A stretch of 32,173 nt of DNA, taken from NCBI GenBank assembly GCA_025059915.1, contig JANXDD010000002.1, positions 1 to 32,173 of the forward strand. The letters are read 5' to 3'. The notes under the pieces are model-generated. The model worked only from the letters and a program-made list of their open reading frames with translations, made no database searches and was not told the DNA's origin. Origin of the DNA: Bacteroidia bacterium (GTDB lineage: Bacteria > Bacteroidota > Bacteroidia > SpSt-205). Made by a program: the position numbers and the translations under genes. Positions within the stretch are counted from its first letter, which is position 1. The number at the start of each line of letters is the position of its first letter. Positions 3,530 through 29,945 of the stretch are shown in pieces.

Positions 3530-5029
3530 ATGAGATACACAGGCTTTCTTTTCGGAGTTGGAGCGCTGGTAACTCTTTCGCTCCGAGCTAATAATCTGCA
3601 GATTACGAACTTTAGCGTGAATCAAGCAAACCAGACGGTATCATTTCAAGTCAGCTGGCAGAATGCATGGCGATTGACCACACCGCCTAACAACTGGGAT
3701 GCTGTGTGGATTTTTGTCAAGTTCCGAGCGTGTAATGAATTTACGCAGCCATGGACCCATGGGGTTATCAGCACCAACTTAGCAGATCACACTATTCCAG
3801 CTGCTTTAGAACCTGTGCTATCAGATGGAAGTGGGATAGGAATAGACCCAGCTCCTAACAATCTGGGGATAATGCTTAGACCTGCGACTCCTGGTACATA
3901 CGCCACGTTTGGTCCGCACAGTGTCACGCTCAAAATCACAAATATGCCAACGACAGGGCAGTACGACTTTCGGATCTTTGGTATTGAGATGGTATTTATC
4001 CCTGAAGGAGCTTATACGTTGGGTACCTTGGACGGCTGGCACAGCACCTCTACTGAAGCTGCGAGAGCATTTGATCAAAACGGAAACAATGGGGATCCTC
4101 ATGTTCCATATAACATTACCTCGGAAAATGCGATTAGCCTACGATGGGCAGGGTCGGGTAACACTTCCATTACCGTTCCGGCCTCATTTCCAAAAGGTTT
4201 CAAGGCTTTTCATGTCATGAAGTATGAAATATCTCAAGGGCAATACGCAGCTTTCCTAAATACCCTACCTGCCAGTAATGCTTCTCTTCGTTATTTAGGC
4301 TCTTACAATACTAACCGAAATAGGCTGGCGAACAATGGGTCTTATCCCAATCAATACTATTCTGACCGCGAGGACAGAGCTCAAAATTTCCTCTCTTGGC
4401 ATGATTTGTGTGCCTATCTGGACTGGGCAGCCCTCCGACCGCTTACGGAAATGGAGTATGAGAAGATATGTAGAGGCCCCTTGCCTGAGGTGAGGGGGGA
4501 ATATGCTTGGGGGACGACCAACATAGTCTTTGGAAATACTATTGGTCTTATTCCTGAAAACGGCACCGAAGTATTTACCGACCCTGCTAATGCTAATTGT
4601 ACGGGAGGAGCAGTTGCCTATACAGGCGGAGATGGAGGGCAGGGGCCAGTAAGGGTAGGCATTCATGCTAAGCCGAACTCTCCTAGCAGAGAGGCAAGCG
4701 GTGCATCTTACTATGGAGTAATGGATATGAGTGGAAATGTGTGGGAAATGGTAGTGATGGTATCGGCACCTGATGGCACAGTAGGCTCTCCTACTTATAC
4801 AGGTAACTGGGGAGATGGGGTTCTGGACTGGACTACAGGTACGGCCAATCAGCCCTCTTGGCCTTTAGGAAATCCGGGAGGATTCGGTTTGCGAGGTGGT
4901 TATTGGGGGAATAATTGGTGGGAGCACCGAGTGTCTGCCCGAAATTGTTCTTATCCTGGACATACGTGCAAAAACACGCGCAATCCGGATCACAGGTCTT
5001 CAGATGCGGGTGGCCGAGGTGCTCGCTGA
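3530..5029 (+). CDS. Secreted FGE-sulfatase/SUMF1-like (C-type lectin fold) protein with Bacteroidota N-terminal beta domain
   Basis: Signal peptide MRYTGFLFGVGALVTLSLRA; FGE core (VFIPEGAYTLG, YEISQGQYAAFLN, RPLTEMEYEKICRGP, YGVMDMSGNVWEMV, GLRGGYW...GGRGAR). Confidence 0.88.
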   Translation: MRYTGFLFGVGALVTLSLRANNLQITNFSVNQANQTVSFQVSWQNAWRLTTPPNNWDAVWIFVKFRACNEFTQPWTHGVISTNLADHTIPAALEPVLSDGSGIGIDPAPNNLGIMLRPATPGTYATFGPHSVTLKITNMPTTGQYDFRIFGIEMVFIPEGAYTLGTLDGWHSTSTEAARAFDQNGNNGDPHVPYNITSENAISLRWAGSGNTSITVPASFPKGFKAFHVMKYEISQGQYAAFLNTLPASNASLRYLGSYNTNRNRLANNGSYPNQYYSDREDRAQNFLSWHDLCAYLDWAALRPLTEMEYEKICRGPLPEVRGEYAWGTTNIVFGNTIGLIPENGTEVFTDPANANCTGGAVAYTGGDGGQGPVRVGIHAKPNSPSREASGASYYGVMDMSGNVWEMVVMVSAPDGTVGSPTYTGNWGDGVLDWTTGTANQPSWPLGNPGGFGLRGGYWGNNWWEHRVSARNCSYPGHTCKNTRNPDHRSSDAGGRGAR

Positions 5030-5049: not shown

Positions 5050-8000
5050 ATGCCTATGCGCTGGCGATGGATTATCGGCTGGGTGGGAGTGCTTCTCGCC
5101 CAGCCTCCGGCAAATGATAACTGTGCAAATGGCTCTTTTATCTCCTTTGGAAGCCCGCATGAGCCGTATGCCGTAGGCACCTTTTACAGTCAGGTTGTGG
5201 ATATCACTCATGCGACCCTTCAGGCAGGAGAATATGTGCCACCAGGGGTGCCGAATGGGAAGACTGTTTGGTATCGGTTCTATCTACCTACCACTCGCAC
5301 AGTGCGAATCGTTCTGCGTCAAGTGGGAAATACTATAGACCCCACGCATGCGGGCTGGACCTTGTACCGAGCCGATGCCTGCTTACCAACATCAGCTCAA
5401 AGGGTTGACCCTCCTATCGTGCTCATGGAGGGATACACCCATGCCTGCCTTTCCCGGGGATGGTACATGGTGCAAGTGGGGGCAAATCTTGCAGCCAGCG
5501 GTCAGGTATTTTTAGAGCTCATCGTTTCTCCTCCTTCGGTCAGCGCAGGTGCTGAAGCGGAGTACGACCACATGGTTACAGCCCAAAATTTGGGAGTACT
5601 TACCACATCTTCCTCGTCAGTTTTGGTCAAGGATGTTGCATTTGACTTTGCCTGTCAGTCAGTGAGCAAAGGCGAGGCAATTTGTGATAATGATTCCTCC
5701 TGGAGTAAGTCATCATGGCATGTATTCCGGACAGATGCCCACGTAGACTGGGTGGGGATAGAGCTTGCGGAGGATCCGTGGGATAATACTGACCCTTCGC
5801 CACGTGAATGGCGTCTCTTTCTCTATCAGGGAAATGCCTTGACAGACTCTGCGGCAGGTCTGACCTTGATTCAGGGCTGCATTCCCTTGATTCAAAACAA
5901 CAGTACCACCAGTGCTCGCTATGACTGGCTCTGTCAGCTTCAACCGAATACCTATTACTCCATAAAGATTCTGGGGCGCACTACCTATGCGAACAGAGTG
6001 CGCCTGCGCTTGTATGAAAGAGGTAGTCAACCGCCCATTTCTTACAATCCTCTTACGATTCCCATCACACATCAGCTGGGTGCGCTGACTTTTGGGCCGA
6101 CCTATACGGTGAATGACTATTGGGGCTGTCAGAGTCGTATTTCCAGTTCTCCTTGTGGGGGTTTAGGCAGTAGCGTCACTCCCGATGATACAATAGGTGA
6201 TTTTGACTTAGCTCTGTACTACACCTTTACCTTAAGTGGAGCTGCTCATGTAAGGTTCTGGTATTCTGAGCCGTGGGGATGGTATTACTGCATGGGCGGG
6301 GTTCGGTTTAGGATTTTTGAGGGAACTCCCGCATCTAATGGATGTAATCTTACGCTGCGGGCAGTTGTAGATAATGATGGATGGGCAAACTGTTTGCCGG
6401 CAGGGACCTATACAGTACAGGTGCTGGCTCGGATAAATCGTTCGGTGCTGTGGAATCTTTGTAGGTCTCCTTATGCTGCATTGGGGCTTCCAGTTAGTTT
6501 TCATATGCAGCTGGGCTCAACTCCTCAGCAGCTTTTTGGCTTGCATAATAGACCTCAGGAAGCTGATGCTATCAATGGAGGCCTTCCTCTGACGCCTGGG
6601 GTAACTTATTATGCGCAATGGGATACTTTAGATTGTCGCACTACAGTTCTGCCGGCCGGAGATGTTTGCGAACCCACTAATAACCGAGCTATTTATCGGG
6701 TTGTACGAGTGGATCAAGAAGGCATCTTGGAGATTGGTGGTGGCAACTGGTGGCGATTCCGATACAGACTCTACAGAGGGGATGCCCGAATAGAGCCTAT
6801 AGTAGGAGGACGCATTCAGAATCTGATAGATCAAGTAGGATGTCAAGACCTTTACTGGCCGGTCAAAGTGTGTGTAACGCCGGGATACTATACGCTGGTG
6901 AGTTTTGGGGATGATATGGATATTGGGGAGCGGGATCGGCCGTGGTTTCGCTTTCATGTGTTTCCACCGGGAGAGCGGCGATTTTATACCCCAGCTGCTC
7001 CCGTGAGCTTGCCGGGCAGTCCTGACCCTCGTCCAAATGTAGAAGAGGTCGGGACGATAGGGGGCTCCACCCATTCCCTTACAGCGACATGGACACGAGT
7101 TACATGCGAGAATAATCCCCTTACTATCTTAGGCTACCCCCCATGTGGAGGTGCGACAAAACAGTTCTACTGGGAAGTTTATATTGCTGAGCCGAGCTTG
7201 ATTACCTTTTCACCGCAGTATGCCTATGTAGCCTGGCCAGAGCTTGGAATAACGGGATGGCGCACTTTTAGAGGGCGCATTAGTGATGGGTCTCTAACCT
7301 CCCTCTATAGAGATTGTCATGGAAGTTACACGGCATGCATGGAGCCGGGATGGTACACTTTTGTAGCTTATGCGGTAGGGGGCACCTATACTAATCCCTC
7401 CTACTCAAATGGGCGAGGGGGAGCTATTGGAAACCGAATATGGTTCGTTATTTCACGAGACCCAAGAGTCCAGAAGTATGGAACCTTCGCCACAGCCCAT
7501 CGCCCTGGAAACTTAGACTGGGTTCCCCATTATACATATGCGCCTAATCAACATCGGAGCTATGCTTTGGATTGGGAATTCTGGTCTTGTGCAAATAATC
7601 TTCCTTTTCCTTCCGGTATTACGCCCTGCGGTGCGGGTCAAAATCGGGTGAGTTATCGGGTCTTTTCTGTTACGCGTCCGAGCTATTTGGTTATTTTTCA
7701 GGATGGCTGCTATTCCTCCTCTCGCTTGTATCAGGGGGATATTACCGCTATGGGTCCGCCTTATACAATTATCCATGATTGCTTCTCTGGAACGGGGAGA
7801 ATATGCTGGGTGCCGCCAGGAACCTATACGCTTGTAACTTTCGCTTCCGATGCCTGTGTTGGCTTTACTTATACTCCCACTATCTATGTAGATTCGGTAG
7901 GGTATTCTCTGTATAACTACGCTGCTCAGGCTTATGACTTCGGCGTCCTTCCTGCTGATAATGTTGAATATCGCGCCCGACCGGGGGACCCTTTAGGGCC

Positions 8001-11000
8001 GTATGGACGGCCTGGGAGTACGGACTTTATTTTCTGTACCACTGATGCATATGCTACCAATCCCGCCGCTAACTGTCCGATAGGCACGATAAACACGGCT
8101 CCTGCAGGAGATGCCCCTCCCACTGTTCTGCCCAATCGTCGTCGCAATTTGTGGTACACTTTTGTAGCTGGAGGAAATGTACGCGTTCATGTAAGGGTCT
8201 ATGCAAGGACGCCGGGTACCACCGAGCAGCCAGCTTTTGCTGTCTATGAAAGCGATGATCCTATTGCAGCCTTTCCCAGTAGTGTAGATTCTACTTTGCC
8301 TGATGGGCTTACGCTGGTTGCTTCTTCCCAGGACTACTGGTGGTGCTGCGACCAATATTCTGGGGTGAGTTTTCAGCGAGATGGTTGTAAACCTCCCCGA
8401 CGGTACTATGTAGTCGTGTATCGCAATACATGTGGAAAGGAGCCTAACATTCAAATAGAAGTTGGTGTGCGCCTGGAACCTCTGCCAGGCGGAGGGGTCA
8501 ATTACGACCACTATTCAGAGGCTAATGTAATCACAGGCAATCCCACTACTCAATGCGATTTACCCTATACTTGGGCTCCTCTTTCGGCGGGAACTTACAT
8601 GGGCTGTCAAGGGGATCTGACCTGCGCAACTAAGGATCCGACAGACCAAAACACTTGCGGCACGCGCACAATCTGGTATGCCTTTGAGTCTGCTATCACA
8701 GGGTATGTCTTTATAAATTACGACAGACCTGGCGTCAGCCAATATAACTTCAATCCCGATGACGTTCAACTTTACTATCAAGCGGTACCGGGCGACTCTA
8801 GCGCTACCGGGCTTGTCCGAGTACCGCTTACAGGAGTATGGCAGACGCATCCAGATTTAGGGAATCGGTACTGGGGGCGAGGATGCGTAAGGCCAGGACG
8901 GTATTATCTGATGTTCACTGGCTGTAATCATCTGGGGTTAGTAGTACCGAGAATATGGCTACAGCGTCATTTAGGCGACTTTTGTCAAGATTCGGTTTCA
9001 ATTTCAGTCCCTTCTGCGGGGGGGCCCTATTCTACAAATCTCACCATCAGCTGCTTCACCATCGGTGAAGGAGCAGGGGAAGCAGATACAATTATGGCCT
9101 GCTTCGGTACTCCGGTGGGTAAGAAGTCTGCTTGGGTGCTGGTGAATAATCTCACTACTGATACGATGGATTTTGACGTGCAGATTATAGAAAATACGAC
9201 AGCGCTTGGAAGTCAGGTGCTCTATCGTGTCCTTACAGGAAATTGTAGCATGATGAATCAGGAGGAATGCGTAGCAGAAGGGACTTACATAACCTTACAC
9301 TTGAAGTGTCGTCCTCCTCTAAAGAGCTTTTGGATTCAGGTTGTTCTTCCTGAGTGGGCTACAGGGGATATTACCGTGAGCGTTACAGCTAATCGCATTC
9401 AGCAGGCATGCGTACCCCCGAATCCTGAGAAGCCGAGAGCAAACTTTGATTTTGTAAATACTTGCTTAGGACAAACAACGCAATTTTTGAACTACTCATC
9501 GGTCGGACCCGACATACAGTACTACTGGACCTTCGGGGATGGGGCATCTTCCACCCATTTCCAACCCCAGCATACTTATGCTGCGGCTGACACTTATCGG
9601 GTCTGCCTTGCAGTAACAAATGGGATTCAATCTGATACCGCCTGCCGCTTTTTGATTATTTATCCCAATCCTGGGGTGAGTGTGAGCATGTCTCCTTCTA
9701 GTCCTGTATGGGTGGGAGTACCTATTATTTTCACTCCGACTTATTCTGATACAGTGAGTGGAGCAGGGGCGGCGATTTATTGGAACTTCTGTGCTGGAGG
9801 AAGCTCTGGATGTGGGGCTTCTCAGATAGACTTTTTGGGGCCTCAGCCTCCCCCAGTGAGCTATTCTACTTCGGGGCGCAAACGGGTCTGTGTGACAGTA
9901 ACGAATGGAGGGTTATGTGATTCTACTTTCTGTATAGAGTTTGATGTGATATTGCCGCCACCGCGGGGGGGGCCGTATGATGGCTCTGCGAGCGCAGTTG
10001 TGACAGCGGCCTGTCCTACTTTCAGTTATGTAGGGGGGCCGTATGATGGGGCAGCAGTAGCATTTCGGGGCTCTATGTGCATGCTGCCAGTAGCTGGAGG
10101 ACCTTATGATGGGTCTGCCAGTGCGATATTGGTAGCGGGGTGCCCTGCTTGGAGCTATGTAGGGGGGCCTTACGACGGAGCAGCGACGAGCTTTGTCGGC
10201 TCAATATGTTGGGCTGTCACGCAATACACTGGTGGGCCCTATGATGGTGCAGCCGTAGCTTCTTTAGTCAGTTGTCCGCCTCCAGTTCATCCATATGCGG
10301 GTGGGCCATATGATGGGTCGGCAGACCAAATTGTGATAGCCTCTTGCTCGCTGGTGAGTTTGAATGGAGGCCCGTATGACGGGGCGGCGACGATGTTTAT
10401 AGGCTCTACTTGTCTATCGCCCATAGCGGGAGGACCATACGATGGCTCAGCGACTCAAGTTTGGGTTGGCGCTTGTCCTGGACTCAGCTATGCAGGAGGG
10501 CCGTACGATGGATCTGCGACTCAGATTGTTTTGGGAGGATGTGTGTGGCCTGTTGCAGGCGGTCCGTATGATGGGGCAGCGACAGCGTTCTTCAACACCC
10601 TCGTCGCTTCGGCAAAGGATACCACCGTATGTGCGGGAAGCACAGTTACTCTCGTAGCGGGGGGACCTTCCAATTGGTATCTTGTTCCTTCAGGGGGCAC
10701 ACCAGTTGCTTCTAATACCTCGTCTTTGACTATTTCGCCTCTCAACCATTCTCAGCTTTACTGGTTGGAAAATTCCTGTACTGCCCAGCGGGTACCGGTG
10801 GCTGCAATTGCTTTGCCTCAACTGAATGGACAAATCTCTGTCAGTCCTACGCCTCACTGTGTGGGTCAGCCTGTTACTTTCACGAATCAAACGCTTGTTT
10901 CGGGGACGAGTCAGCCCAGTTTCGGTTCTCTCATCACAAGCTTTGGAACCCACGGGACAGTGCCAGCGGCAAGTCAGCTCACTTTCTCCTCCGTTCAAAC

Positions 11001-12111
11001 TGCAAACTTTTCACAGCTGGGTGATGGTATCTACCAAAACGGTACAGCATGGACGGCAGGTAATTCCGGGGCTGGCACCCAATGGGCGATGTGGCGCTAT
11101 CCCATACCTCGTAGCGTGAATCGCATTGTATTCTGGGCCTGTCAGAGCTGCCCTAATGCTGCTCAACGGCTTCCACGCTATGCCAGACTTTACTATAACG
11201 ATGGCAGCGGCTGGAAGTTAGCGAAGGCTTTCTCCTTCGCTCCGGGCACATATGTGTATGATAGTGGAATCTTTACGGAGACGCAGGTCATCTTTGCGCA
11301 GTTGTGGCGGCTGGAGCTTGATGTATCAGCGGCTAATGCGCCAAGTTTCGGAGAATTTCAAGTTTATTCCAGTTCCCCTGTCATAGGAGGCCATGTACAA
11401 TGGAGCTGTGATGGCGGAAATACATGGACCGCAGGCAATTCTCATTCATGTACATGGAGTACGCCAGGCACGAAGACTATCACGATGGTAGTGAATGCAC
11501 CTGGAGCTTGTCCAGATACTGTCCAGCAGACGGTAAGTATAGCCAACTGTGGTCCTTTGCCAGCTATTCAGAGTATTTTGGCGGCTTATCCGACTTCTCA
11601 GGCTCATGTTCGTCTTCTCTGGCAGACCAACGTGCCTATTGAATATGCGGTGCTGGAGAAAAAAACTGATACGGGATGGACGGCTATTTATCGTCATGAA
11701 GTGCGGGGGGCTACTACTTTTGGCTGGATAGATAGCTTCCCGACTTTTGAAGGTAATAACCTTTACCGCGTAGTTAGCGAACATGGTGTAGGGCAGCTTA
11801 TATACAGTAATGTAGCTGAGGTGCGTTTTGCTGAGGGAGGGGAGGCTGTGGAAGAGTTTCTCCGAGCCTTCCCTAATCCAGTAACGGAGCAGCTGACAGT
11901 GCAGTTTGGGGTTAGCACAGAGGCTTACATCAGCATTCGGGTTTATGATGCGAGGGGAGCTTTGGTCGCTTACCTTACGCCTGAGCAATATAAAGCAGGA
12001 CTTCATGAGAAGAAAATAGATACCCGCAGCTGGGCAACAGGCGTCTATACTCTGCAATTCCTAAAAGGCGAAAGGGAGCATACCTTGAAGCTTCTCAAGA
12101 TAGTCCCATAG
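5050..12111 (+). CDS. Giant T9SS-secreted surface protein: signal peptide, tandem PPC-like Cys-rich domains, PKD domains, ten GGPYDG repeats, Ig-like region, C-terminal T9SS sorting domain
   Basis: MPMRWRWIIGWVGVLLAQPPANDNCANG signal peptide plus PPC start; repeated 'LWYTFV...PGTYTL/PGRYYL' blocks; PKD 'YYWTFGDGASSTHFQPQHTYAAADTYRVCLAVTN'; C-terminal FPNPVTEQLTVQF...YDARGALV...STRSWATGVYTLQF-type sorting domain. Confidence 0.92.
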   Translation: MPMRWRWIIGWVGVLLAQPPANDNCANGSFISFGSPHEPYAVGTFYSQVVDITHATLQAGEYVPPGVPNGKTVWYRFYLPTTRTVRIVLRQVGNTIDPTHAGWTLYRADACLPTSAQRVDPPIVLMEGYTHACLSRGWYMVQVGANLAASGQVFLELIVSPPSVSAGAEAEYDHMVTAQNLGVLTTSSSSVLVKDVAFDFACQSVSKGEAICDNDSSWSKSSWHVFRTDAHVDWVGIELAEDPWDNTDPSPREWRLFLYQGNALTDSAAGLTLIQGCIPLIQNNSTTSARYDWLCQLQPNTYYSIKILGRTTYANRVRLRLYERGSQPPISYNPLTIPITHQLGALTFGPTYTVNDYWGCQSRISSSPCGGLGSSVTPDDTIGDFDLALYYTFTLSGAAHVRFWYSEPWGWYYCMGGVRFRIFEGTPASNGCNLTLRAVVDNDGWANCLPAGTYTVQVLARINRSVLWNLCRSPYAALGLPVSFHMQLGSTPQQLFGLHNRPQEADAINGGLPLTPGVTYYAQWDTLDCRTTVLPAGDVCEPTNNRAIYRVVRVDQEGILEIGGGNWWRFRYRLYRGDARIEPIVGGRIQNLIDQVGCQDLYWPVKVCVTPGYYTLVSFGDDMDIGERDRPWFRFHVFPPGERRFYTPAAPVSLPGSPDPRPNVEEVGTIGGSTHSLTATWTRVTCENNPLTILGYPPCGGATKQFYWEVYIAEPSLITFSPQYAYVAWPELGITGWRTFRGRISDGSLTSLYRDCHGSYTACMEPGWYTFVAYAVGGTYTNPSYSNGRGGAIGNRIWFVISRDPRVQKYGTFATAHRPGNLDWVPHYTYAPNQHRSYALDWEFWSCANNLPFPSGITPCGAGQNRVSYRVFSVTRPSYLVIFQDGCYSSSRLYQGDITAMGPPYTIIHDCFSGTGRICWVPPGTYTLVTFASDACVGFTYTPTIYVDSVGYSLYNYAAQAYDFGVLPADNVEYRARPGDPLGPYGRPGSTDFIFCTTDAYATNPAANCPIGTINTAPAGDAPPTVLPNRRRNLWYTFVAGGNVRVHVRVYARTPGTTEQPAFAVYESDDPIAAFPSSVDSTLPDGLTLVASSQDYWWCCDQYSGVSFQRDGCKPPRRYYVVVYRNTCGKEPNIQIEVGVRLEPLPGGGVNYDHYSEANVITGNPTTQCDLPYTWAPLSAGTYMGCQGDLTCATKDPTDQNTCGTRTIWYAFESAITGYVFINYDRPGVSQYNFNPDDVQLYYQAVPGDSSATGLVRVPLTGVWQTHPDLGNRYWGRGCVRPGRYYLMFTGCNHLGLVVPRIWLQRHLGDFCQDSVSISVPSAGGPYSTNLTISCFTIGEGAGEADTIMACFGTPVGKKSAWVLVNNLTTDTMDFDVQIIENTTALGSQVLYRVLTGNCSMMNQEECVAEGTYITLHLKCRPPLKSFWIQVVLPEWATGDITVSVTANRIQQACVPPNPEKPRANFDFVNTCLGQTTQFLNYSSVGPDIQYYWTFGDGASSTHFQPQHTYAAADTYRVCLAVTNGIQSDTACRFLIIYPNPGVSVSMSPSSPVWVGVPIIFTPTYSDTVSGAGAAIYWNFCAGGSSGCGASQIDFLGPQPPPVSYSTSGRKRVCVTVTNGGLCDSTFCIEFDVILPPPRGGPYDGSASAVVTAACPTFSYVGGPYDGAAVAFRGSMCMLPVAGGPYDGSASAILVAGCPAWSYVGGPYDGAATSFVGSICWAVTQYTGGPYDGAAVASLVSCPPPVHPYAGGPYDGSADQIVIASCSLVSLNGGPYDGAATMFIGSTCLSPIAGGPYDGSATQVWVGACPGLSYAGGPYDGSATQIVLGGCVWPVAGGPYDGAATAFFNTLVASAKDTTVCAGSTVTLVAGGPSNWYLVPSGGTPVASNTSSLTISPLNHSQLYWLENSCTAQRVPVAAIALPQLNGQISVSPTPHCVGQPVTFTNQTLVSGTSQPSFGSLITSFGTHGTVPAASQLTFSSVQTANFSQLGDGIYQNGTAWTAGNSGAGTQWAMWRYPIPRSVNRIVFWACQSCPNAAQRLPRYARLYYNDGSGWKLAKAFSFAPGTYVYDSGIFTETQVIFAQLWRLELDVSAANAPSFGEFQVYSSSPVIGGHVQWSCDGGNTWTAGNSHSCTWSTPGTKTITMVVNAPGACPDTVQQTVSIANCGPLPAIQSILAAYPTSQAHVRLLWQTNVPIEYAVLEKKTDTGWTAIYRHEVRGATTFGWIDSFPTFEGNNLYRVVSEHGVGQLIYSNVAEVRFAEGGEAVEEFLRAFPNPVTEQLTVQFGVSTEAYISIRVYDARGALVAYLTPEQYKAGLHEKKIDTRSWATGVYTLQFLKGEREHTLKLLKIVP
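9967..10602 (+). repeat. Ten-copy GGPYDG[S/A]A protein repeat (period about 21-23 aa) inside the giant surface protein
   Basis: GGPYDG occurs ten times in frame from 9967 to 10558, nine followed by one Cys per unit; S-type and A-type units roughly alternate. Confidence 0.97.
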
Positions 12112-26597: not shown

Positions 26598-29500
26598 ATG
26601 AACTGGCGGGGGGAGTGGGGGATATTCAGGCGCATCTTGATTTTAGGGGGAATTCCTGCGTTTCTCAGGGCTCAATGGGTGGATACGATTTTCCCTGCCG
26701 AAGTTTCGCAGTGGGTGCTTCCGCGCGGTTGGCTTCGTCCCGGAAGTGTGCAAATGGAGCCCCCTGTCAGATGGCGATATGATACCGCTGCTCATAAACT
26801 TATCTGGGATTCCTCGGGCACAGCTGTAAGGGTGAAAGCGGAAATTCTTCCTTTGCCGGAGGCTCCTGCTCGTTTTTCTCCTCTGCCGTGGAAAGCTTTA
26901 GAGCGATGGGATAGTTTAGCGCGTATTTCTTATGCGCCTGCGAATGTCCCCCATAGTCAGGGGGATACATTTACGCCGCAAGTAACTCGCAGTGGGAGCT
27001 TGATTCGCTCCCTCACCATAGGAACTGGCCAAAATGCCACCCTCAATAGTGCTTTTCGGCTAAATTTAGAAGGCAAAATTGCACCTGACCTTTATCTCAT
27101 TGCTGCGCTGACGGATGAGAATCTACCCTTTCAGACAGCGGCGACGCAAAGTATAGCCGACTTTGACCGTGTAAATATTGGGCTGCGCTGGCGGTACGGA
27201 CAGCTGCTTCTGGGTGATTTGGAGCTGCGGGAGAGCCGTTCAGCTTTTGCTAACTTCTATCGGAATGTGCTGGGTATAGAGGCGCGAGCTACTTGGAGGA
27301 AAAACGAGATGCGCCTTGCCCTGGCAGAGGCGAAGGGACAGTTTCACACTAACTCTTTCATGGGGCAAGAAGGGCGGCAAGGGCCCTACCCCCTCACAGG
27401 CAAAAATGGAGAAAGGTTCATTACCATCTTAGCTGGGTCTGAAAAGGTGTATGTCAATGGGGTGCTCATGCAGCGAGGACAAGACCGGGACTATGTGATA
27501 GAATATACCGTTGGTGAGATTACTTTCACGCCGCGGGTGCCTATTACGGCAGCCACCCGAATCGTAGTAGATTTTGAGTATGCGGATAGGAGTTATAGCC
27601 GAAGCTTCATTTGGCTTACCGAGAGCTGGCAGGGAGAGCGGTTCAAGATAAACACTTCCTATTTCAGGCAGGCGGATAACTTTCGGCGCCCTTTGGACTT
27701 TGCCCTCTCAGCTGAAGAAGAAGCAGCTTTAGCAAACCTTCCCCGAGGAACTCGGCAAGGACTCCTTTCAGGAATAGATACGCTTCCCTACGAGCCAGGG
27801 GCTATCCGATATGCAGTGCGGGATACCCTGATTCAAGGGGTGCCCTATCAGTATTTCGTCCAGAGCCAAAATCCTCGGGAAGCACTTTATCAGCTAAGCT
27901 TTACTTATGTGGGCTCTGGGCGAGGGGAGTATATTCGGGATGCCAGTTCTATCAATGGAAACATCTTTCGCTGGGTCGGCCCGGGAAGGGGCGAGTATAT
28001 TATCGGACGGGCTGTGCCCTTGCCAGTGAGTATAGAGGTTTTTTCTTTTCGGCATGAGTGGCAGGTGCTGAGGCGCCTTCGCTGGGAAGGCGAGACGAAC
28101 CTCAGCCGTTTTGATGAAAATCGTTTCGCTCGTCATAGAAGCTCTGATATAGCCCTTAGACAAACCCTGCGGGGAGAGCTTTTTCCCGACACCTCCGCAT
28201 GGCAGCTCAAACCTGAACTCACCCTCCAGTACGTAGGAGCAAACTATCAGAACGCTGATCGGGTGTATGAGCGCGAATACGGACGGCTATGGAACTACAA
28301 TGACTTGGAGTCTCGGCAGACGGAGCGCCTGATAGAGAGCCGCCTTACTCTGAGTTACAAGAACCGCTATCGGCTCACACCTCATATAGGATGGCGCAGG
28401 TGGGGCGATTCCCTTCGCACCTTTCGTAGTGCCCTTCTGTGGGAAGGGACAGATACTACGCGCGGGCTTGGAGGGTCGTATTTGATAGAATATATCCCCA
28501 CCTACACCCTCCGAGGGGTAGACAGATGGCTACGCCACACAGGACGAGTATTTTTCTCTTACAAAAAGTGGCAAATCGGAAGCGTAATCTGGACAGAGGA
28601 TCGCCGAAGTGCCCTACAGGATACGACGAACTTCCACTTCTATGAGTACACCCCTTATGTGCGATACGAGGGGAAAAAGTGGTTTTGGCGGATTGCCTAT
28701 CAGTGGCGGCGGGAGTGGCAGCGCCCTGTTGGAGAACAGCTCGGTCATTTAGCCCTGCGATTTTATGCCTATATGCCGCAGGGAGAGATTCGCTATCAGT
28801 CAGAGAGGGTATCGTTTTCTTTAGTAGGGTCGTACCGCTTTTTTGAGCCGGGCAGCAGGGTTTTCGGGCTGGAGGCGGCTCGGACATTTCTGGGGCAAAA
28901 CAGTCTCCGCCTCCGATTGCGCCCATGGGATATAGAAACTTTCTACCAAATTTCAGCTGAGCGCACCCCTCAGCGTCAGATACTTTTTGTTGCCGTAAAT
29001 CCAGGGCAGGGAACTCATGAATGGCGCGACCTCAATGGAGATGGACTTCAGCAGATAGAAGAATTTATCCCCGCAGTCAATCCGCTTTTGGCTAACTATA
29101 TTCGGGTGCAGCGGGCTACGGGGAGGTTTATTCCCAGTATTACGCTTAGTGCAGCTGTAGCGGTTCGGTGGCAGCCTGAGCGGCGCCTCAAATGGATAAG
29201 CTACCAACTCAATACTCGGCTGGAGCAGCGGCAAAATGCTCCAGATAGCCGGTGGAGCCGCTACCTACCCAGTTTGCCGCGGGCAGATACTACATTCCTC
29301 AGCTGGTCTCTCCTTCATCGGCAAGACCTTTTCCTTTTTAGGCAAGCTCGGCGAGGGGACCAAACCTTCTCTTTTCAATATCAGCTCTCTCAGCTCATAC
29401 CTCTTTCTGGCCTCCAAACCCAAGTTCAAAGGACCTACGCCTCACGCTCCCGATATAATTTTTCGCGCAGCTTTGGTACAGAGGCTTTGCTTACCTACAC

Positions 29501-29945
29501 TGAGAAAAGGAGCTTAGCTCCATTTCAGGCTGAGCTCAATTATGGGTATCAGGGGGTGGAAATTTATCCGCAGCTGATATATCAACCCTCAGGAAAGTGG
29601 CGCAGTAGCATAGGGCTGGCTTACAGGCAAAGGTGGGGAGCTGCTCCGTTGGGATTTAGTTTGCGAGGTCTGAGGGTGCCTATGGAGCAGCGGTGGGCCT
29701 GGCGCGCAGGGGCCCTTTTTAACTTGCGAGTAGAGCCGGCTATTTATCGCTCTACTGCCCAGCTGCCTCCACTACTTCTTTTTGACCTTCTGGAGGGCAT
29801 GCAAGTAGGACGCAACCTCTTTTTAGGTTTGACGCTGAGCATTCCTATCAGCCGATATGTAGAATTGTCTGCTCTCTATGAGGGGCGGTTTAGTGAGCGG
29901 CTGCCAGTCCATTCAGCCCGAATGCAAGCCCGAGCGAACTTTTAG
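26598..29945 (+). CDS. Large outer-membrane beta-barrel-like protein of unknown function
   Basis: N-terminal signal-like segment RRILILGGIPAFLRAQ; PLTGKNGERFITILAGSEKVYVNGVLMQRGQDRDYVIEYTVGEITFTPRVPI; many alternating aromatic/basic beta strands; EF-hand-like DLNGDGLQQIEEF; C-terminal residue F. Confidence 0.8.
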   Translation: MNWRGEWGIFRRILILGGIPAFLRAQWVDTIFPAEVSQWVLPRGWLRPGSVQMEPPVRWRYDTAAHKLIWDSSGTAVRVKAEILPLPEAPARFSPLPWKALERWDSLARISYAPANVPHSQGDTFTPQVTRSGSLIRSLTIGTGQNATLNSAFRLNLEGKIAPDLYLIAALTDENLPFQTAATQSIADFDRVNIGLRWRYGQLLLGDLELRESRSAFANFYRNVLGIEARATWRKNEMRLALAEAKGQFHTNSFMGQEGRQGPYPLTGKNGERFITILAGSEKVYVNGVLMQRGQDRDYVIEYTVGEITFTPRVPITAATRIVVDFEYADRSYSRSFIWLTESWQGERFKINTSYFRQADNFRRPLDFALSAEEEAALANLPRGTRQGLLSGIDTLPYEPGAIRYAVRDTLIQGVPYQYFVQSQNPREALYQLSFTYVGSGRGEYIRDASSINGNIFRWVGPGRGEYIIGRAVPLPVSIEVFSFRHEWQVLRRLRWEGETNLSRFDENRFARHRSSDIALRQTLRGELFPDTSAWQLKPELTLQYVGANYQNADRVYEREYGRLWNYNDLESRQTERLIESRLTLSYKNRYRLTPHIGWRRWGDSLRTFRSALLWEGTDTTRGLGGSYLIEYIPTYTLRGVDRWLRHTGRVFFSYKKWQIGSVIWTEDRRSALQDTTNFHFYEYTPYVRYEGKKWFWRIAYQWRREWQRPVGEQLGHLALRFYAYMPQGEIRYQSERVSFSLVGSYRFFEPGSRVFGLEAARTFLGQNSLRLRLRPWDIETFYQISAERTPQRQILFVAVNPGQGTHEWRDLNGDGLQQIEEFIPAVNPLLANYIRVQRATGRFIPSITLSAAVAVRWQPERRLKWISYQLNTRLEQRQNAPDSRWSRYLPSLPRADTTFLSWSLLHRQDLFLFRQARRGDQTFSFQYQLSQLIPLSGLQTQVQRTYASRSRYNFSRSFGTEALLTYTEKRSLAPFQAELNYGYQGVEIYPQLIYQPSGKWRSSIGLAYRQRWGAAPLGFSLRGLRVPMEQRWAWRAGALFNLRVEPAIYRSTAQLPPLLLFDLLEGMQVGRNLFLGLTLSIPISRYVELSALYEGRFSERLPVHSARMQARANF

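Follow-up and report, generated by a model that had tools for sequence, protein, structure and literature searches.

A GGPYDG repeat array from a hot-spring Bacteroidia bacterium is part of a conserved two-gene module with an exported FGE-fold protein

The array gene and its ten repeat units

Why should one exported protein carry the same hexapeptide ten times, each time in a different DNA spelling? The question arose from a first-pass annotation of a 32,173-nt stretch of DNA (GCA_025059915.1, contig JANXDD010000002.1), the whole of which is called the window here. The gene concerned belongs to a hot-spring bacterium and lies on the forward strand, as do its upstream neighbor and the parts of both genes described below, at 5050–12111; from its ORF and its Pfam and NCBIfam matches, it is predicted to encode a T9SS-exported protein of 2353 aa. 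The ten-unit GGPYDG array (9967–10623, in frame in this ORF) is preceded by a PKD_4 domain (Pfam, residues 1462–1530, 9433–9639) and followed by an Ig_7 domain (Pfam, residues 1856–1923, 10615–10818). The protein ends in a Por_Secre_tail, the T9SS type A C-terminal sorting domain (residues 2274–2347, 11869–12090), which was matched above the cut-off in both databases (TIGR04183, 7.6e-08; PF18962, 1.6e-10), and this marks the array protein as a predicted T9SS cargo.

The GGPYDG copies start at nucleotides 9967, 10033, 10096, 10162, 10231, 10300, 10366, 10429, 10495, and 10558, and such repetition of the peptide is far beyond chance. Several points of the annotation held when the units were recounted: the ten hexapeptides are identical, in frame, and encoded by ten different 18-nt spellings; nine of the ten units hold one Cys; and the two unit types, with Ser or Ala after the motif, follow the order S A S A A S A S S A. 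The first nine units are 22, 21, 22, 23, 23, 22, 21, 22, and 21 aa long, and the tenth, which has no Cys, merges into the Ig_7 domain. The two-unit building block that had been suggested is better described as a 22/21 alternation in length, the phase of which is shifted by a central pair of 23 + 23 aa (units 4 and 5, 10162–10299) that is kept in relatives; after this pair, the parity of between-unit similarity flips. The annotation had also recognized no named repeat family, in agreement with the database searches, as neither Pfam nor NCBIfam has a model that covers the window array and no Pfam repeat family, the curlin repeat included, matched the proteins of the window or of the related loci L030, L035, L033, and L034. 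Elsewhere in the window, an ORF of 1115 aa without a Pfam match (26598–29945) lies downstream of an AcrB-family transporter gene.

DNA spelling and constraint on the hexapeptide

Strong constraint at the amino-acid level, as proposed in the annotation, was borne out by a count of changed codons in positionally orthologous units of five species. All 100 changed codons in GGPYDG were synonymous and none was nonsynonymous, against 166 synonymous and 193 nonsynonymous (193/359) in the rest of the unit. The hexapeptide is thus under strong purifying selection.

The annotation had further considered that the ten spellings might reflect selection against identical DNA, which could slip or recombine, and the fact that all ten differ is what speaks for this explanation. 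Synonymous codons were therefore drawn 2000 times from the array gene's own usage. The expected number of distinct spellings was 9.92 of 10, ten of ten were reached in 93% of the simulations, and the mean number of codon differences between GGPYDG copies was 3.71 as compared with an expected 3.76 ± 0.24, so that the diversity is exactly that predicted for a random draw. Because the spellings match random synonymous choice, the units of the window are saturated at synonymous sites, in line with the old duplications claimed for them; the window's own units are anciently diverged. In the arrays of relatives, by contrast, units are 94–98% identical in DNA, often at two-unit offsets, which is recent duplication, and distinct spellings are often fewer than random (12/18 and 8/13). 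Identical DNA is therefore tolerated, and the arrays grow and shrink. Selection against identical DNA was ruled out by the codon-usage simulation, and we regard it as extremely improbable.

Relatives and the wider GGxxDG family

Relatives, both within the genus and from further families of its class, carry the array in this position, with a PKD domain before it and an Ig_7 domain after it; the named records among them come from metagenome-assembled Bacteroidetes. Of the genus arrays, those that are fully readable contain 10, 10, 10, 14, and 18 units, all even numbers, while the array of genome G007 is broken by a frameshift. Frameshifts within or beside the repeats were noted in two hot-spring genomes (G007, L031:5940–6002; G005, L030:5490–5526), for which assembly error and real decay are both possible.

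Other arrays differ in unit or motif: L048 has 25-aa units, L035 has GGSYDG, and that of G118 is Cys-less with GGPNDG/GGSGDG. These arrays tie GGPYDG to a wider GGxxDG family. The kinship with GGxGDG-type repeats that the annotation had loosely drawn is upheld, since G118/L051 and many other arrays bridge both forms. Most units hold one Cys; the arrays of L104, L107, L109, L115, L116, and L124 have none. Altogether, GGxxDG arrays were present in 43 of the 395 sampled Bacteroidia genomes.

Predicted fold of the array

When the array was modeled with its flanking domains in AF2 (11 rows), its pLDDT was about 30 and no fold was defined. For five units with 26 non-overlapping rows, the best model (pLDDT 72.9, pTM 0.67) showed two strands per unit with GGPYDG in the turns, that is, one strand-turn-strand layer per unit, and the five models disagreed (pLDDT 72.9 to 46.0). 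A Foldseek search returned no significant fold match for the array model, the weak matches being mostly solenoids, with the E. coli CsgA fibril among them. The array is provisionally read as a possible beta-arch solenoid. The curli CsgA repeats are similar in having glycine-rich units of about 22 aa and possible strand-turn-strand layers, but they differ from the array in motif, and the array has no Pfam match and no significant fold match to them. A sequence search of PDB chains also showed a short GG(Y/F)DG likeness to Kelch repeats, spanning about 18 aa of a 45–50-aa blade; this was taken as convergence, and Kelch membership was rejected because the resemblance is limited to the short motif.

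The upstream FGE-fold protein

Ending 20 nt before the array gene, and upstream of it in relatives as well, is a gene for an exported FGE-fold (PF03781) protein of 499 aa (3530–5029). Its FGE-sulfatase (formylglycine-generating-enzyme-like) domain (residues 224–413, 4199–4768) was matched in Pfam at 1.2e-13, above the curated cut-off. Read by eye, the protein has a signal peptide that contains no lipobox Cys, and no sorting tail was found in it. In the alignment, a variable C-terminal face (4898–5008, RGGYWGNNWWEHRVSARN...) is followed by a conserved GGRGAR tail.

Catalytic FGE acts on Cys and has an active-site Cys pair near its C-terminus. Among the 76 aligned FGE-fold proteins, no conserved Cys was found in that region. 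The window protein thus shares the fold and the domain match with formylglycine-generating enzyme (PF03781) but lacks its catalytic Cys pair, and no sulfatase partner was found in the window. Conversion of Cys to formylglycine was rejected on the absence of the Cys pair and of Cys in several arrays. Using the window protein alone as the query against 295 genomes of the class (E ≤ 1e-20), exported Cys-less FGE-fold proteins were found in 53 of them. An internal G[DN]G loop, at residues 428–430 of the window protein and present in 74 of the 76 proteins, recalls the GDG of the partner; covariation of the loop with the partner motif was inspected, and no obvious match was seen.

Pairing of the FGE-fold gene and the motif gene

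The association of the two genes was examined from both sides. Sixty loci were fetched by FGE-fold similarity and, with the window and a few relatives added and duplicates removed, 63 loci were compared. The strict GGxxDG motif occurred in 35 of the 63 genes directly following the FGE-fold gene and in 9 of 407 other ORFs, at least two copies in 30/63 and 5/407, and the loose GGxxxG motif in 54/63 and 63/407; the p values for these contrasts are too small, as the array had been the first route to a few of these loci and related rows are not independent, yet the effect is very large despite this non-independence. Several of the nine GGxxDG-bearing other ORFs are themselves array genes with an FGE-fold gene nearby.

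Starting from the array, with a profile (A6) built from mostly non-GGPYDG arrays, an FGE-fold gene was found directly upstream in all 16 array loci with upstream sequence, some of which come from genomes already sampled and are not all independent; two further loci stop at contig edges. The gene was upstream in every relative with sequence there, including those with partners of unrelated architecture. Within the genus, six genomes have both the array and the FGE-fold gene and four have neither. In another class, G392 (L052) keeps the pair, while its sibling G290 (L053) has no FGE-fold gene and its GGSYDG array gene is frameshifted, which is joint decay of the pair and was counted for the pairing. 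The tag gene and the FGE-fold gene thus form a conserved pair, a two-gene module. A search of the open-access literature for the motif and the pairing yielded neither a function nor a description of the system, which points to a module undescribed within that literature; it may have been described elsewhere.

Partner proteins and the variable face

In most motif genes, the motif starts a few residues past the signal peptide. The minimal partners (L110, L117, L118, and L121), of only 115–137 aa, are built from three parts: the signal peptide, an approximately 30-aa peptide with a single motif, and the T9SS tail. From this build, the cargo would seem to be the motif peptide itself, with the arrays as its multi-copy form.

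Mapped onto the tree built from 56 FGE-fold proteins, the motif classes of the partners, which we assigned ourselves, clustered strongly (14 changes as compared with 30.5 after shuffling). All GG[PS][YF]DG partners fell in one 14-row clade, and these partners differ in their domains and in length, from about 300 aa up to 2500 aa or more. Vertical linkage could account for this clustering in part or alone.

The C-terminal face is the most variable part of the FGE-fold proteins (mean identity 0.48, as compared with 0.69–0.71 in the core), and a conserved GGRG(V/A)R tail comes after it. In one pair of loci from G015 and G557 (L125:5129–10352 and L142:6227–11453), near-identical motif partners, changed at 2 of 1161 codons, adjoin strongly diverged FGE-fold genes, with differences along their whole length that peak at the face (14 nonsynonymous and 2 synonymous changes in 25 codons); the loci are from draft MAGs, one with an estimated 6% contamination. 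Gene conversion, cassette exchange, or a MAG artefact could explain the contrast. The variable proteins of diversity-generating retroelements likewise combine an FGE/C-type-lectin fold and a variable face close to the C-terminus (PMC5006420, PMC6328139). Unlike in those systems, a search of ten genomes found no reverse transcriptase (RVT_1) in nine, among them G000, the genus relatives, G015, and G557, and no template repeat was found in the L125 and L142 loci; a diversity-generating retroelement was therefore rejected.

Proposed function of the module

As the partner is constant and the face variable, the face is argued to bind something other than the constant motif, and docking of the motif is therefore placed elsewhere on the FGE-fold protein, perhaps on its well-conserved N-terminal domain. 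In the reading that we favor, at a little less than an even chance, a T9SS-anchored motif scaffold displays variable FGE-fold binding proteins. GGPYDG would be a lineage form of a GGxxDG/GGxxxG tag borne by the T9SS-exported partners of an FGE-fold (C-type-lectin-like) protein; the tagged partner would serve as a surface-anchored scaffold, and each tag would dock one FGE-fold protein, itself without a sorting tail. An array of 10–18 tags could then present a variable binding protein in many copies simultaneously, in a scaffoldin-like manner, with the unit Cys possibly stapling or stacking a beta-arch solenoid. A surface location of the FGE-fold protein, as supposed here, would need it to be exported together with its partner or along a different path. 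The cellulosome scaffoldin (cohesin-dockerin) compares with this arrangement only in how it would work, as an anchored scaffold with repeated docking sites and separately encoded clients; it has no sequence relation to the array, and docking in the array system is proposed. That an FGE fold without the catalytic Cys pair can act as a docking hub is known for PorK, GldK, and GldJ (PMC12421860), which also share the Bacteroidota export context and whose substrate groove now serves protein contacts (PMC12421860, PMC12635249). These are lipoproteins of a periplasmic ring or track, whereas the window protein has no lipobox and differs from them in having its own N-terminal domain, one variable face, and a paired GG-motif gene.

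The same pairing would also fit an enzyme. The FGE-fold protein might act in the periplasm, ahead of T9SS export, and modify a Cys, Tyr, Asp, or Gly in each unit of the motif; the array would then be a multi-site substrate and the minimal partners modified surface peptides. The strict one-to-one pairing of the genes, the resemblance of the minimal partners to precursor peptides, and the one Cys of most units, given the Cys chemistry of catalytic FGE, agree with such a role. We nevertheless consider it unlikely, because none of the 76 aligned proteins has the canonical catalytic Cys pair, several arrays have no Cys, and the most variable region lies where the FGE active-site cysteines would sit, which suits binding over conserved chemistry. 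Also improbable in our judgment is a role of the array as a stalk or fibre of the curli-like or beta-helix type, in which the FGE-fold protein would be its chaperone, nucleator, or export helper and the single motifs would not be docking sites. Periods of 19–28 aa, the layer-per-unit geometry of the best model, the mostly solenoid weak fold matches, and the growth and shrinkage of arrays by two units are consistent with a stalk; many partners, however, carry a single motif and cannot form one, the models disagree without a significant fold match, and a hypervariable face is not expected of a chaperone.

Extended from the favored scaffold reading, the module may represent a widespread and undescribed surface-recognition system of Bacteroidota, in which an anchorless hypervariable FGE/C-type-lectin-fold protein sits on a constant T9SS-anchored scaffold via GGxxDG tags, singly or in tens; we put this forward as a possibility and somewhat doubtfully. 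Treating the FGE-fold proteins and the GGxxDG arrays as parts of a single module makes a function for each of them testable. Should docking hold, tags of six residues would represent a new, modular way of displaying proteins on the bacterial surface, and variable receptors shown in tens of copies would be relevant to attachment and to the recognition of prey or phage; should modification hold instead, the Cys-less FGE fold would perform a new peptide-modifying chemistry.

Additional loci

The genome of the window (G000) holds a second pair on contig C4 (L200:1–1650), where an FGE-fold gene disrupted by a stop codon lies at the contig start and the downstream gene encodes 315 aa with GGMGSGYDG, GGTGGG, and GGIDDG motifs and a T9SS-like tail. 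In G640 (L087:1–5478), several tandem FGE-fold genes lie 5' of one array gene, and the same arrangement was seen in L100, L108, and L184.
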